DNA from: Phycisphaerales bacterium | Lineage (GTDB): Bacteria > Planctomycetota > Phycisphaerae > Phycisphaerales > UBA1924 | Reading direction: 5' to 3' | DNA: 64,000 nucleotides | NCBI GenBank assembly: GCA_029260395.1 | Contig: JAJDDJ010000001.1 | Location: 496,001 to 560,000, forward strand | In this document: one piece after another, positions 33,562-41,616 of the stretch | Position numbering within the stretch: the stretch's first letter is position 1 | Layout of the letters: each line of letters opens with the position of its first letter | Position numbers and translations under genes: made by a program | Notes under the pieces: model-generated | Database searches by the model: none | What the model saw: the letters and a program-made list of their open reading frames with translations, nothing else | What the model was told of the DNA's origin: nothing

Positions 33562-36312
33562 TCAGCGAACCCCGAGCGGGTGCTCGCCGAACACTACTTT
33601 CACCTTGGACGGGCTTCCGCCGTGCTCATCGAAGAGCGTGAGCTCATTGAGCTTGGCGCGGTCGAGCCACGGCTCGGGCAGGTAGTAAAGGGTCTGCGGT
33701 GGGACCGGTGTGCCGTCGGCTGTCGCAACCCAGTACCGGCCCACGTTATGCCCATTGAGCAGGATCTGCCCCTTGGTCATACCGGTGAGATCGATGAACA
33801 TGGCGCGCGAGGTTTCGGGCGCAGCGAACTTCGTGCGCCACCACACGGGTGAGGACGGATGCTCCTTGAGCTCGGCTTGCGCTTGGCTCTCCGGCTTGAA
33901 GGACGTGGCCGCGGGCGGCTCCCACTTCGCGAACGCCCAGTCGGCCTTCTCGCTGATGGCGTTGGTGCCCTCATCGATGGTCATCGAAGCCGACAGCTGT
34001 GAGAGTGCGTCCTTGACCTGGTCCTCGGCGATGGTGTCCGCTGCGAACGCGATCTGCAGCGTGTTGTTGCCGCGATTGAGTTCTTCCTGGTCAAGCACGA
34101 TCCGGTCGAATCCCGAGCGGTCGAACACTCGGATGATCTTGCCGTTGAGGATCAGCACCGCCGGCGCGATGAACTCGTTGACCGTGATGATCAGCGGCGA
34201 CTTCTTGCGGTGAATAAAGCTCCACGTCGCACGCACCGGGTGGGTTACGTCGCCCTCGCGGGTCTCCCACATCGGCTCGTAGCCCGCGAGCAGATCGAGC
34301 GGTGCTTCTTCGACCAGACTCATACGGCCAGCTTTGAACGCGGCCCGCTCGAACAAGTGCCCGTAAAGGCCCTTGCGATCGCCCAGGTGCGCGCCGCTCG
34401 AATACCGGCCCAGGTTGTCGACTAAGAGAACGAGATTGGTCGAGGTCTTCTTGAACGGCACGGTGAGCCCATCATCCGCTCCCGGACCATGACCCGAAAC
34501 GCCCACGGGTTCGCCGTCGAGGTACCCGGTGAGCCTGTCGCCCGAATGCGGGGCCAGCAGCTTGGGCCGTTTGGCTGCCGGGTTCTTGAACGCGAGCCGG
34601 TACCACCCGTAGCCGTACGCGGCGCCCAGTTCGGTAAGCGTGGCCGGCCCGTTGATTCGAGCGAAGCGCGGGCTCTCGCCCGTCACGTGGGGCATCGCAT
34701 GAGCGGCCTTCCACTCGCCTAGTTCGGCCTTCGGGGCGGCGGCGGGCAGCTTGCGTTTGAGCCTCGAGACCGTGCCATCTGGCGCCACGCACACCGCGTC
34801 TTTGCTTGCTGCGATCGGCTCGCCATCGGCATCAACGCCGTGTACATGGACGTACACCTTGTCGCCGAACGGGTAGGTGCGCTCGAACTGGGCCTCGTTA
34901 CAGAGCACCACGGTGACGCCTTCATGGCGCAGCACGGTGGGCTGCTTGTCCTTGGCAGCGGGAGCCTGAAGATCGATCGGCGAGCTGTTGACCGAGAGCG
35001 TGCCCCAAGCGCCTTCCGGACCCACCACCAGCAGCATCTCGCCCTGCCCCGCGACCACGCTAAAGGTTGAGTAATCGAGCCGTGATCGGCCGTTGAGGTG
35101 CGTGTTCATCAGCACCCACGACACCGGGCATTTGCCCGCTGGCACAAGCAGCGGCTGGCCGTCTGGCAGCAGCAGTTCGGCATCGTTCCAAGTGCCCTTC
35201 TTGCCCTCCGCGTGGAACACGAACGCGACGCTCCCTTGCGTGCCGCTCAGGTGCACGACCGAGCTGGTCGAGGGATGAGGCCGGGTGACCACGTGCGCGT
35301 TGTCGGGCTCAGCGTTGGCCACCACACGAGCGAAGGTGTTGGCGAAAGACGCGATGCGGCGCACGGCGGCGAACCGGTCGCCTGCGGTCCCGCCCTCCGT
35401 GAGCGGCGCGCCCTGGTCATTGGACGTGGTGACGAACGATCGACCGTCGAAGGGCGCACGCCCGCCGAAGAACTCGAAATTGGTCCCGCCACAGAAGGGC
35501 GTAACGACGAACTGCCCGCCGCCCGCGAGCACCTCGGCCATGGTCCGCGTCACCAACCCGGGCTCAATGGGGTCGGGGCGAGGCTGGTTCCAGACATCGG
35601 GCTGACCGAGTCGCAGATCGGCGACGATGCGCGGGTGCTTCGGGGCGACCTGCCCGAGCTGGCGCATGATCGCGAGCATGTCCTCGCTGCCGCTCCAGGC
35701 CTCGATCTCGCCCTCGACGCTCTGCCACAGGTTGTTGATGTTGATGACGGGCACGGTCAGGCCCGACTCGCGGAAGTACCGGCTGATCTCGCCGAGGTAC
35801 CGCTTGGCGAGATCGGGCTTGCCGCAGGTCCAGTGGTGCTCGTTCTGGATGAGCACGATCGGCCCGCCGCCCGAGCTGACGGCCTGCAGGTCTTTGACCT
35901 GACCGGCGACGGCTGAGATGAACTTGCTGGTCGCTTCGAGGAACGGCGCGTTGGCGGTACGCAGCTCAACGCCCGGCGTGAGCTGGAGCCAAGCCGGGAT
36001 GCCGCCAAGGTCCCACGAACTCCCCACGAACGGGCCCATACGCAGGATGCAGCGCATGCCGGCCTGGTGGATGAGCTTGATGAAGTGCCGAAGGTCGTAC
36101 TCGCCCTCGAATTCGAAGTGGCCCGGCCGGGGTTCGTGGCAGTTCCAGAACACGGGGGTCTCGATGGTGTTGAGCCCGGCGAGCTTGGCTGCGTGGATAC
36201 GCTGGGCCCACAGCTCGCGCGGGACCCGGGCGTAGTGCAGCGAACCACCAACGATCCAGATCCGCTTGCCATCGACCAGGACGCTTCGACCATCAAATGT
36301 GACTGCGGGCAT
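33562..36312 (-). CDS. Glycoside hydrolase family 35-like protein (beta-galactosidase-like)
   Basis: GH35-type (beta/alpha)8 barrel followed by beta-sandwich domains, 916 aa. The N-terminus has the family pattern WIVGGSLHYARVPRELW, GLNTIETPVFWNCHEPRPG and FVGSSWDLGGIPAWL. The acid/base region reads VLIQNEHHW (about residue 152) where the family has QxENEYG; the Glu is kept. In the nucleophile region, where ExWxGW is usual, it reads ADLRLGQPDVWN (about 232), so Asp or nothing replaces Glu. GGTNFEFFGGRAPFDG (about 277) is recognisable. ATG 36312 fits the fold; 39 extra codons upstream do not. No signal peptide is seen. It could be an altered or inactive enzyme. Confidence 0.82.
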   Translation of the reverse strand: MPAVTFDGRSVLVDGKRIWIVGGSLHYARVPRELWAQRIHAAKLAGLNTIETPVFWNCHEPRPGHFEFEGEYDLRHFIKLIHQAGMRCILRMGPFVGSSWDLGGIPAWLQLTPGVELRTANAPFLEATSKFISAVAGQVKDLQAVSSGGGPIVLIQNEHHWTCGKPDLAKRYLGEISRYFRESGLTVPVININNLWQSVEGEIEAWSGSEDMLAIMRQLGQVAPKHPRIVADLRLGQPDVWNQPRPDPIEPGLVTRTMAEVLAGGGQFVVTPFCGGTNFEFFGGRAPFDGRSFVTTSNDQGAPLTEGGTAGDRFAAVRRIASFANTFARVVANAEPDNAHVVTRPHPSTSSVVHLSGTQGSVAFVFHAEGKKGTWNDAELLLPDGQPLLVPAGKCPVSWVLMNTHLNGRSRLDYSTFSVVAGQGEMLLVVGPEGAWGTLSVNSSPIDLQAPAAKDKQPTVLRHEGVTVVLCNEAQFERTYPFGDKVYVHVHGVDADGEPIAASKDAVCVAPDGTVSRLKRKLPAAAPKAELGEWKAAHAMPHVTGESPRFARINGPATLTELGAAYGYGWYRLAFKNPAAKRPKLLAPHSGDRLTGYLDGEPVGVSGHGPGADDGLTVPFKKTSTNLVLLVDNLGRYSSGAHLGDRKGLYGHLFERAAFKAGRMSLVEEAPLDLLAGYEPMWETREGDVTHPVRATWSFIHRKKSPLIITVNEFIAPAVLILNGKIIRVFDRSGFDRIVLDQEELNRGNNTLQIAFAADTIAEDQVKDALSQLSASMTIDEGTNAISEKADWAFAKWEPPAATSFKPESQAQAELKEHPSSPVWWRTKFAAPETSRAMFIDLTGMTKGQILLNGHNVGRYWVATADGTPVPPQTLYYLPEPWLDRAKLNELTLFDEHGGSPSKVKVVFGEHPLGVR

Positions 36313-36531
36313 CAAGACTCCAGCGGTTGGGGTGCGAGCAGCCGACGTGCGCACACGACAGCCCTTCTCGCTCTGAAAGGCACCTGCGAGGAAAGCCTCA
36401 ACGTTAGGTCGGCATGCCCAAAATGGCAACGTCAGGCGCCTTGGCTCGTATACCCTGCCGCCCTGTTATCGCCCGCTCGCGCGGCCCGGTCACGAACGAT
36501 CCGCAGGCCCCCATCTGGACCACCGCCGACC

Positions 36532-38430
36532 ATGCTTCTACGTCTTGCTTTGCCGCATCGCCGCTCGGATGCCTCAATCGCCGGTCTTGGCCGTCCGAGG
36601 CTCCGTTCCCTCGTGCTCACGTTTGCGAACGGGCTGGTCGTGCTCGCGCTGGCTGGCTGCGCGAATCCGATGGCCGCGATTGATAAAAAAATCAACCGAA
36701 CCGCCGAATCTCGGGCTGAGGCCATCGGTTCCAACCGATCGCCCACGCTCCAGCCCTTCGAGACCAAACGCTCGCGGGGGGCCAAGACCGACAAGAACCC
36801 CGAAACCCGAAACCCCTCTGCGACCGAACTCGACTACACCGGCCGGGCCCCCGATGGACGAACGCCCGCAGAAGTTGCGCGGTCACTGAGCAACACGCTG
36901 GAGGGCTACGGCGAGCGGGCGGTCGGGCTCAATGACGCCGAGGTCAGGACCATCTCGCTCGCGGACGCCTTCTCCATCGCCCAGCGGCAGTCGCGCGAGT
37001 ACCGCACCGCGGAGGAGGACTACCTGATCTCGGCGATTCGGCTGCTCATCGAGCGCCACCTGTTCGACCCGCGCCTGTTCAACGACACGTTGCTCACGGT
37101 CGATTCCAACGGCTCCGACGGCCGGTTCGACAGCGCGCTGCGCGTCATCAACACGATGCGGCTGACCAAGCAGCTTCCCTACGGCGGGAGCGTCGAGGCC
37201 CGATGGGTGTGGAACGCCGCCGAGCAGCTCCGTTCGAGCGTCGAGGGTCAGTACGTGCAGTCCTCGCAGCTCGTGCTCAGCGGCAACATCCCGCTGCTGC
37301 GCGGCGCCGGGTACATCGCACAAGAATCGCTCATCCAGTCCGAGCGCGATCTCGTGTACGCCGCCCGCGAGTACGAACGGTTCCGCCGAACGTTCTACGT
37401 GGCGATCGCCATCGACTACTTCGGCCTGCTGCAAACGCTCGCGGAGATCCGCAACCAGATCAGCCAGCTCGCGAGCCTGCGTCTCTTCGAGCAGCAGCGC
37501 CGTGAGCTGTACGAAGCGGGCCGCATCAGCGAGTTCGACGTCAACGACGCGGCCAACAGGGTGCTGTCTGCCGAATCATCGCTCGCGTCGCGACGAGAGG
37601 CCTACGCGCTGTCACTCGATCGGTTCAAGATCCGCCTCGGCATACCGGTCACCGAGCCATTGCAGCTGTTTGGCGTGAAGGTGCTGCTCGACCCGCCCGC
37701 GGCCACGCTCGACGAGGCTACCGAATCCGCGCTGCTCTACCGTCTCGATCTGCAGACCAGCGCCGACCGCGTATTGGATTCGTCGCGGTCGCTCGACAAC
37801 GCACGCAACCAGCTGCTGCCCGAACTGAACATCGGGGGCTCGGCCCGGCTGCCCACCGACCCCGACACCAACGAGGGTGGCGTTGCGTTCGACCCCGACG
37901 AAGCGGACCTTTCGGCGAGCCTCGATCTCTCGCTGCCGCTCGACCGACGCATCGAACGTCTCAGGATGCGTGAATCGCAGATCCGTGTGCAGCGCGCGGA
38001 ACGCTCCTACGAGCAGGACCGCGACCAAGTAATTCTTGAGGTGCGCCAGCGGCTGCGTGCGATCGACCTTGCTCGGTTCAGGCTCGAACTCGCGCAGCGG
38101 CAGGTCGAGATCAACGAACGCCGGCAAGAAGAGCAGCGCATCAAAGCCGACGAGGTCGACACCAACCGCCGGCTCGATACCGAGTCTGACCTGCTCAACT
38201 CCAAGAACGCACGGGACCAAGCCGCCACCGATCTCCGCGTCGCGATCCTCACCTATTTGCTCTCGGCGGGACGGCTTCGCGTCGCCGACACCGGTCATCT
38301 TGCGCCGCTGGATGGCATGACCATCGACTACACCGATACGCCAGTGAGTTTCCTCGAGCTGTTCGGGCGCAGGGACCTGTTCGAACAACTGCAGCCATCG
38401 CCCGATGATGCTGCGAACAACGGCGACTGA
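36532..38430 (+). CDS. TolC-family outer membrane efflux lipoprotein
   Basis: 632 aa. A signal with lipobox (LVVLALAGCANP, about residues 35-45) indicates lipidation. After a disordered charged segment the TolC pattern begins: long amphipathic helices SLADAFSIAQRQSREYRTAE, LTKQLPYGGSVEARWVW, LVLSGNIPLLRGAGYIAQES, then a second structural repeat with LDLQTSADRVLDSSRSLDNA, RNQLLPELNIGGSA and LDLSLPLDRRIERLRMRESQ. It should trimerise into an outer-membrane channel with a periplasmic tunnel. No inner-membrane pump or adaptor gene is adjacent, so its partner lies elsewhere. The 219 bp between it and the divergent GH35-like gene hold both promoters; a TATACC -10-like word is the only hint. Confidence 0.87.
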   Translation: MLLRLALPHRRSDASIAGLGRPRLRSLVLTFANGLVVLALAGCANPMAAIDKKINRTAESRAEAIGSNRSPTLQPFETKRSRGAKTDKNPETRNPSATELDYTGRAPDGRTPAEVARSLSNTLEGYGERAVGLNDAEVRTISLADAFSIAQRQSREYRTAEEDYLISAIRLLIERHLFDPRLFNDTLLTVDSNGSDGRFDSALRVINTMRLTKQLPYGGSVEARWVWNAAEQLRSSVEGQYVQSSQLVLSGNIPLLRGAGYIAQESLIQSERDLVYAAREYERFRRTFYVAIAIDYFGLLQTLAEIRNQISQLASLRLFEQQRRELYEAGRISEFDVNDAANRVLSAESSLASRREAYALSLDRFKIRLGIPVTEPLQLFGVKVLLDPPAATLDEATESALLYRLDLQTSADRVLDSSRSLDNARNQLLPELNIGGSARLPTDPDTNEGGVAFDPDEADLSASLDLSLPLDRRIERLRMRESQIRVQRAERSYEQDRDQVILEVRQRLRAIDLARFRLELAQRQVEINERRQEEQRIKADEVDTNRRLDTESDLLNSKNARDQAATDLRVAILTYLLSAGRLRVADTGHLAPLDGMTIDYTDTPVSFLELFGRRDLFEQLQPSPDDAANNGD

Positions 38431-39228: not shown

Positions 39229-40785
39229 TTAGGCTTGCACTTCGGGGCGTTCCTTCTCAGGCCAATCGAGGTGGAAGAACTCGCCGCGCGGTGCATCGAC
39301 CCGTTCGTAGGTGTGGGCGCCGAAGTAGTCCCGCTGGGCTTGAAGCAGGCTCGCGGGCAGGCGGGCCGAGCGGAGCGAGTCGTAGTACGCCAGCGCGCTG
39401 GAGAACGCGGGCGTGGGCACGCCCTGCAGCGCGGAAGTCGCGACCACACGCCTCCACGCATCCTGGGCGTTGTCCACCGCCTCGACAAACGCGGGTGCCA
39501 TGAGCAGGTTGGGAAGGTCCGCTCGTTCGCGGTAGGCGAGCGTGATCTCGTGGAGCAGAGCCGCCCGGATGATGCACCCGCCCCGCCAGATCTGGGCGAT
39601 CTCTGCGAAGTCGAGGTCCCAGTTGTTCTCTTTGGAAGCCTCGGCCATCAGCCCAAAGCCCTGGGCGTACGCGCAGATCTTTGAGCAGTACAGCGCCTGA
39701 CGCACGTCCTCGACGAACTGGGCGCGGTCGCCCTCGAACTCGGGCGACTCTGGCCCGTCGAGCACCTCAGAGGCCGAGACGCGAAGGTCCTTGAACGAGC
39801 TGATCGCGCGCGCAAACACCGCTTCGGCGATGGTCGGGGCTGGCACGCCCATGTCGAGCGACGCCACCGAGGTCCACTTGCCGGTGCCCTTCTGGCCGGC
39901 GCGATCGAGCACGATGTCAACGAACGGCTTCGAAGTCTTCGAGTCCACCTGCCCCAGAATGTCCGCTGTAATCTCGATCAGGAACGAGTCAAGCTCCGTG
40001 TCGTCCCACGCCTTGAACACGTCCGAAAGCTCCGCGGGCGACAACTCGAGCACGGTGCGGAGCAGGTCGTACGCCTCGCAGATGAGCTGCATGTCGGCGT
40101 ACTCGATGCCGTTGTGCACCATCTTGACATAGTGACCCGCTGAGCCCGGCCCGATGAACGCGGTGCACGCCTCGGCGTTCTCGTCATCGACGGTCTTGCC
40201 CGGCGCAGCGCCCTCGATGGGCTTACCCGTGCGGGCATCAACCTTGGCAGCGATGGCCTGCCAGATCGGTTCGAGCACGGGCCAGGCCTCGCGGTCGCCG
40301 CCGGGCATCAGGCTCGGCCCGAACCGGGCGCCGGTCTCCCCGCCGCTGACACCCGAGCCGATGAACCGAAGGCCTTTGGCTGACAGTGCCTCGGCCCTGC
40401 GAGAGGTGTCGTCCCAGTGGGCGTTGCCGCCGTCGACGATCACGTCGCCCGGCTCCATGTGCTCAGCAAGCGAGTCGATCACCGCGTCGGTCGCCTTGCC
40501 TGCCTTGATAAGGATGATGGCGACCCGTGGCCGCTTGAGGGCGCTGACAAAGTCCGCCACGCTCTCGCACCCGACAAGCCCGCCCGGCCCCTTGCCGCGG
40601 TAGCCCGGCCCAAAGGTGCCCGCGGGGTGCTCCGCGAGCATGGCCTCGGTGACGGAGGTCGTGCGGTTGTGGACCGCGACCGAAAAGCCGTGGTCGGCGA
40701 TGTTGAGGGCGAGGTTCTGGCCCATGACGGCCAGTCCGACGACGCCCGCGTCGGCGGAGGCGGGCTTGGGGGATTCGAGCGTCAT
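39229..40785 (-). CDS. gnd: 6-phosphogluconate dehydrogenase (decarboxylating)
   Basis: Oxidises 6-phosphogluconate to ribulose 5-phosphate and CO2, yielding NADPH. The Rossmann motif is [18 protein letters not shown] with VHNRT after the second strand, where the Arg favours NADP. The catalytic signature is [20 protein letters not shown] (the usual GxGVSGGxxGAxxGPSxMPGG), and substrate contacts are in [16 protein letters not shown] with the catalytic Lys. 518 aa, longer than E. coli Gnd (468), partly through extra segments around [20 protein letters not shown]. It is divergent from the candidate small RNA at 41002, about 215 bp between starts. Confidence 0.96.
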
Positions 40786-40966: not shown

Positions 40967-40995
40967 TTGGCAAAGCTGCCGGACCGAGTTATCGT
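40967..40995 (+). promoter_or_regulatory. Sigma70-like promoter of the candidate small RNA
   Basis: TTGGCA at 40967-40972 and TATCGT at 40990-40995 are separated by exactly 17 bases and match TTGACA/TATAAT at five and four positions respectively. Transcription would start near 41001-41003 and run towards the strong terminator at 41154. No open reading frame with plausible coding character begins downstream. Confidence 0.55.
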
Positions 40996-41001
40996 CCCGT
41001 C

Positions 41002-41190
41002 AGAGAGACTTGGACCCAGCCGGGTCATCGGAGGAGAGAACAGATTTCGCCCCGCCATCTCAGGCAGCGAGGTCATAGAGGAGAGCACCGAACAAAATCG
41101 GTCGCCACCGCCGTCGACGTTACGGCTACCCAGACCACTCACCCTCTCTTCTCGCCCCGTTGGTGAAAACCAACGGGGCGGTTTGTTTTT
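41002..41190 (+). ncRNA. Candidate small RNA, about 190 nt (possibly 6S-like)
   Basis: Free-standing unit of promoter, about 150 nt of structured sequence and an intrinsic terminator, with no protein gene on this strand nearby. Local hairpins include GACCC/GGGTC (from 41013), ACCGA/TCGGT (41087-41102, loop ACAAAA) and GCCG/CGGC (41110-41126). Alternatively the ends pair: AGAGAG with CTCTCT, TGG with CCA, and AGCCG with CGGCT, giving a long interrupted rod as in 6S RNA. Size and isolation suit 6S, but I cannot identify the family. It lacks signature sequences of tmRNA, RNase P RNA and SRP RNA. The 5' end is inferred from the promoter. Confidence 0.5.
41154..41190 (+). terminator. Strong intrinsic terminator
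   Basis: An 11-bp perfect stem (GCCCCGTTGGT at 41154-41164, ACCAACGGGGC at 41169-41179) with a GAAA loop is followed by GGTTTGTTTTT. The T-run lies only on the plus-strand side; in the other direction GCGAGAAGAGAGG follows, so it does not terminate the minus-strand genes. It is the clearest Rho-independent terminator in the window. Confidence 0.93.
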
Positions 41191-41214: not shown

Positions 41215-41616
41215 TCAGGGCAGCATCCGTGCCCGGTCAGCCTCACTCGGAATCTCGCACCGTTCCACCCGGCCAGCAATCTTGTACCGGTTGGCCGCGA
41301 CCAGCCGGTAGCCCCAGTCCCGGATCGGCCTGGGCACCGCCCAGAGCTTGATGCCGAATATCGCGGGCCATCCACCCATCGCCATCAGCATCTGCGCGAC
41401 CGCTTCGCTGCGGGTGTAGAGCTTGCCCTGACGCACGAACACCATCGAGCTCATGTCTGCCGGCTTGTCCTCGCGGTCGAGCGCGGCAAACGTCTCGCCC
41501 TGCAGCGGCGCAAAGCGGAGCACCGCCTTGCGGTCGTGCTTGAGCATCCAGCGGACCGACCACGAGCACATGCCGCACGTGCCGTCGAAGAACACGATCG
41601 GGTCTTCGTCGTTCAT
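41215..41616 (-). CDS. DCC-family thiol-disulfide oxidoreductase-like protein (DUF393)
   Basis: 133 aa. The N-terminus has the family motif VFFDGTCGMCSWSVRWML, the DGxCxxC thioredoxin-like active site. RFAPLQGETF and SMVFVRQGKLYTRSEAVAQM follow, then the hydrophobic C-terminal segment IRDWGYRLVAANRYKIAG, typical of DUF393. The biochemical role is not established. It is 10 bp downstream of the DUF2071 gene on the same strand, so the two are very likely one operon. Confidence 0.88.
   Translation of the reverse strand: MNDEDPIVFFDGTCGMCSWSVRWMLKHDRKAVLRFAPLQGETFAALDREDKPADMSSMVFVRQGKLYTRSEAVAQMLMAMGGWPAIFGIKLWAVPRPIRDWGYRLVAANRYKIAGRVERCEIPSEADRARMLP

Follow-up and report, generated by a model that had tools for sequence, protein, structure and literature searches.

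The candidate RNA lies on the plus strand of a 429 bp gap, with minus-strand genes on its two sides: gnd, encoding 6-phosphogluconate dehydrogenase, and a gene for a DCC1-like thiol-disulfide oxidoreductase. Next to the latter, on the side away from the gap, is a DUF2071 gene. Coordinates refer to the window, that is, the whole 64,000 nt stretch of DNA that was analysed (positions 496001-560000 of contig C1), unless a contig is named, and the features of the locus are collected in Table 1. Assemblies of Phycisphaerales and Phycisphaerae are among the relatives picked up through gnd, and the source is probably a planctomycete of this group. The source genome comprises 3.22 Mb in 23 contigs, and the contig statistics given below are based on C1 only (660 kb, about one fifth of the genome), which has a G+C content of 65%. 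Genes on C1 were called with a simple, home-made codon-usage script, and this counts as a weakness of the analysis. Co-directional gaps as long as that between the DCC1-like gene and gnd, or longer, make up 21 of the 362 on C1. Elsewhere in the window, a plus-strand frame of 787 aa (36067-38430) probably represents a shorter outer-membrane efflux protein (PF02321), for which the codon-usage start call is at 36613.

Table 1. Genes, transcription signals and predicted RNA structure at the locus (window coordinates).
Feature	Position	Strand	Details
gnd, 6-phosphogluconate dehydrogenase, divergent neighbour	39229..40785	-	PF00393, E 5e-131; PF03446, E 1e-44
Sigma70-type promoter, TTGGCA-17-TATCGT	40967..40995	+	9/12 consensus
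Predicted small noncoding RNA	41002..41190	+	no ATG/GTG ahead of the terminator; MFE -80.4 kcal/mol, z -4.86; no Rfam match
5' hairpin GACCC/GGGUC, alternative register exists	41013..41026	+	pair probability ~0.7
Predicted domain closed by a 9 bp stem, GGAGGAGAG (41030-41038) with CUCUCUUCU (41144-41152)	41030..41152	+	pair probability 0.65-0.84
Internal hairpin A	41043..41074	+	pair probability 0.98-1.0
Internal hairpin B, loop around AACAAAA	41080..41109	+	pair probability 0.77-1.0
Internal hairpin C	41110..41126	+	pair probability 0.91-0.99
C-rich stretch ACCCAGACCACUCACCC, unpaired for the most part, may be an interaction region	41127..41143	+	unpaired probability 0.64-1.0
Intrinsic terminator with a 13-pair stem (41152-41181) capped by GAAA, then a U-tract	41152..41190	+	-26.2 kcal/mol
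DCC1-like thiol-disulfide oxidoreductase, convergent neighbour	41215..41616	-	PF04134, E 7e-25

Promoters were called by consensus scans. The promoter proposed in a preliminary description of this DNA was recovered as the sole sigma70-like site (at least 9/12 matches to the consensus) across 3 kb, with 0.2 expected from shuffled sequences, and the predicted start is the A at 41002, 7 nt past the -10 hexamer. Across C1, the density of sigma70-like sites is about six-fold higher in intergenic than in genic DNA (0.110 vs 0.018 per kb and strand).

At the other end of the locus, the GAAA-loop stem is followed by the tail TTTGTTTTT, and a U-tract is found on the plus strand only. A GAAA-capped terminator with a U-tract had been described here before; it is present and strong, but its stem has 13 pairs rather than 11 bp. 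The 3 kb scan found this one terminator-like site where 1.7 were expected, so the count by itself is unremarkable, and the strength and isolation of the site were examined instead. By stem energy it ranks 13th among the 703 hairpin-plus-U sites of the 660 kb contig, and among the intergenic terminators of C1 that have no same-strand gene stop in the adjoining 300 nt it is the strongest. The closest upstream plus-strand gene stop is 2722 nt away, and there is no other gene upstream that the terminator could serve. That strong intergenic sites do serve as terminators in this genome is indicated by their placement, 38 of 55 on C1 being within 100 nt past gene ends. Two more strong hairpins on the plus strand, at C1:102532-102560 and C1:120244-120267, have their nearest upstream same-strand stops at 294 and 1009 nt, respectively, and may mark RNA genes or missed genes.

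Units consisting of a sigma70-like promoter and then a strong intergenic terminator within 40-400 nt, with no gene between them, were searched for along the 660 kb of C1. Only three were found: tRNA-Ala, tRNA-Ser and the locus described here. The comparison with tRNAs was an unplanned control, and since two of the three gene-free units are tRNA genes, the signature picks out real stable-RNA genes on this contig. The anatomy of the complete RNA transcription unit claimed in the preliminary description thereby appears to be borne out, the promoter and terminator being significant and in the correct order.

The predicted fold of 41002-41190 is more stable than that of shuffled sequence, and when the terminator is removed the body retains a z-score of -2.72, with 1 of 200 shuffles folding as well, in agreement with the roughly 150 nt of hairpin-forming sequence predicted earlier. 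The minus strand of the locus also folds well (z -2.91), so folding alone cannot set the strand; the promoter, the U-tract and the isolation of the terminator do so. No ATG or GTG occurs within 41002-41151, which is also the case for 16 of 568 intergenic 150-mers, and the longest frames of the 429 bp gap gave no match in a Pfam search. Both results uphold the earlier statement that there is no protein gene on the plus strand.

A BLAST search of the locus against 60 relatives returned no homologue, just chance matches of 16-49 nt. Similarly, a single-sequence covariance model found no homologue in 163 family genomes (the source genome being the one member of its genus among them); the best non-self match scored 20.5 bits, and the matches that were inspected are coding-like, are not followed by a terminator and have many pairs broken. 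The nearest gnd relative is 74% identical, and at a distance of this kind many sRNAs are no longer alignable. In 37 related loci, where about 1.5 kb of upstream DNA was covered in most, the DCC1-like and DUF2071 genes were not found beside gnd, nor was a comparable divergent terminator found near the gnd genes of relatives. None of the named sRNA families in Rfam 15 gave a match. Judging by these searches, the RNA appears to be confined to the genus or to a few close relatives, a range within which 'conserved in the genus' and 'unique' are not separable.

The significance of the promoter and terminator, the tRNA-like signature, the orphan terminator, the fold of the body and the lack of ATG and GTG together argue that 41002-41190 is probably a genuine gene for a noncoding RNA. 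The new lineage-specific sRNA put forward in the preliminary description gains support from the same anatomy, in which a putative promoter and start, a structured body and an orphan terminator occur with no protein gene. Promoter-like and terminator-like sequences could also have come together by chance in an untranscribed gap. The signals rest on consensus scans, gaps of this length or more occur elsewhere on the contig between co-directional genes, and conservation was found neither among the 60 relatives by BLAST nor in the 163 family genomes by covariance model. Such a coincidence would, however, have produced the strongest intergenic terminator on C1 lacking a nearby same-strand stop, in a unit whose signature is otherwise shared by tRNA genes only, and we regard it as rather unlikely.

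If the locus is a noncoding RNA gene, the TTGGCA-17-TATCGT promoter would direct RNA polymerase to begin at about 41002, and transcription would stop at the hairpin ending at 41181 and its U-tract; the product would be a stable RNA some 185-190 nt long. This is predicted to consist of a 5' hairpin, a domain of three hairpins with a 9 bp closing stem, the unpaired C-rich stretch and the terminator. The RNA would then most likely act in trans, pairing with mRNAs by way of exposed loops or the C-rich stretch, and would do so without Hfq; a search of the source genome (93% complete) found no Hfq. A trans-acting, Hfq-independent, base-pairing role is the likeliest by default, as suggested by the class of RNA. 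The CU-rich tail was considered as an anti-Shine-Dalgarno sequence, and this role was not supported, the mean duplex energy being -11.3 at 522 translation starts and -11.9 at gene-internal controls. The CU-rich tail paired with translation starts no better than shuffled tails did, and the C-rich stretch likewise showed no preference for them over shuffles. Given the lack of preference for translation starts, base pairing is without positive support; that the candidate RNA works as a base-pairing regulator is given somewhat less than even odds. The explanation as a whole, a free-standing noncoding RNA gene that most likely specifies a lineage-specific, Hfq-independent, trans-acting regulatory sRNA, is held with about even confidence.

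A regulatory RNA could also act in cis. Transcripts of gnd that originate on the DCC1-like/DUF2071 side would cross the locus on the opposite strand, and the sRNA would pair over its full length with this long gnd leader. The DCC1-like gene and gnd are co-directional across the gap, in which no minus-strand sigma70-like promoter (at least 8/12) was found, and as the hairpin is also without a U-tract on the minus strand, read-through into gnd is possible. Nevertheless, a promoter of gnd may escape a consensus scan, and in none of the 37 related loci were the DCC1-like and DUF2071 genes found next to gnd (again over about 1.5 kb upstream in most). The antisense arrangement is considered unlikely.

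Alternatively, the RNA might titrate a protein, for example as a CsrA sponge. The source genome has two CsrA-like genes (C18:109726-109881 and C13:423818-423985), and the RNA body contains several GGA triplets, but these sit in predicted stems and not in hairpin loops, and by our own estimate their number, about four per 150 nt, is that expected from base composition. Protein titration is accordingly considered quite improbable. The same degree of doubt attaches to a short-peptide mRNA read from a non-standard start codon, or to the remains of a decayed gene: a frame of 22 codons begins with a TTG at 41010, but no ATG or GTG precedes the terminator, the longest frames are without a Pfam match, and the covariance model found no homologue among the 163 family genomes.

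The least probable reading is 6S RNA (ssrS), and this identity was rejected. 6S RNA forms a rod whose central bubble resembles an open promoter, and in this way ties up the housekeeping RNA polymerase. The 6S reading had been raised in the preliminary description, where an interrupted rod was drawn. The length (about 189 nt) and the free-standing position would be suitable, and the complementarities AGAGAG/CTCTCT and AGCCG/CGGCT on which the rod was based are indeed present; when imposed, however, the rod has an energy of -72.3 kcal/mol against -80.4 kcal/mol for the best fold, 8.1 kcal/mol worse, with a pair probability of about 0.001. The best fold is a 5' hairpin with a three-hairpin domain and not a rod with a central bubble. 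An Rfam covariance search for 6S, as suggested in that description, was run over the gap and gave no match to RF00013 even at E-values up to 10 (family cut-off 46.4 bits). A class-level planctomycete 6S model, built from seven 6S matches in other families, scored at most 2.8 bits at the window locus and 39.4 bits (E 2.1e-6) at another site of the same genome, C9:165509-165672, which belongs to a syntenic and covarying family.

The C9 site, on the minus strand, gives a full-length RF00013 match of 27.2 bits (E 0.0017), which is below the 46.4-bit cut-off, and it lies upstream of clpB, in the gap that separates this gene from a small ORF. The class-level model gives similar matches in many family genomes, including that of the nearest relative by gnd. 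A relative of the 120-residue neighbour is found beside most of the 6S-like loci of the family, and clpB beside several. When ten of these loci were aligned, 91.6% of cells pair, and 20 of 32 pairs are changed on both sides; the structure of this alignment is far above that of slid versions, although fitting the alignment to the model biases it towards such a result. C9:165509-165672 is a divergent 6S candidate and, on score and synteny, a better one than the window locus. Across the phylum, RF00013 matches were found in 89 of 199 planctomycete genomes, 52 of them above the curated cut-off. This contrasts with the absences given in PMC5673643, where no 6S was found in Thermogutta and where Wehner et al. 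(2014) are cited for its absence from Pirellula staleyi and Rhodopirellula baltica.

The incidental result on 6S is the more solid gain of this work, pointing to divergent 6S RNAs in Phycisphaerales-type genomes that fall below the cut-off yet are syntenic and covarying. The window locus itself probably represents an ordinary type of noncoding RNA gene. Very few sRNAs have been catalogued for the whole PVC group (eight distinct ones in the table of PMC9029176), and a candidate whose promoter and terminator are clear, from a genome in which no Hfq was found, offers a practical way into the study of Hfq-independent regulation in this group. A more far-reaching reading, that of an undescribed, abundant structured RNA, divergent from gnd, which regulates central carbon metabolism in Hfq-less planctomycetes through a protein partner or a mechanism that model bacteria are not known to have, is highly improbable.

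Among known systems, 6S RNA (RF00013) shares with the candidate its size class and a free-standing gene, but the fold, sequence and covariance-model score all differ. The CsrA-binding RNAs of the CsrB/RsmZ type resemble it in that GGA triplets are present and the genome has CsrA; in the candidate, however, GGA is not enriched and does not lie in hairpin loops, and there is no Rfam match. Trans-acting intergenic sRNAs of bacteria differ from the candidate in that its genome has no Hfq match and it matches no named Rfam 15 sRNA family, but they share with it an individual promoter, hairpins, a C-rich unpaired stretch, a strong terminator with a U-tail and the lack of an ORF.
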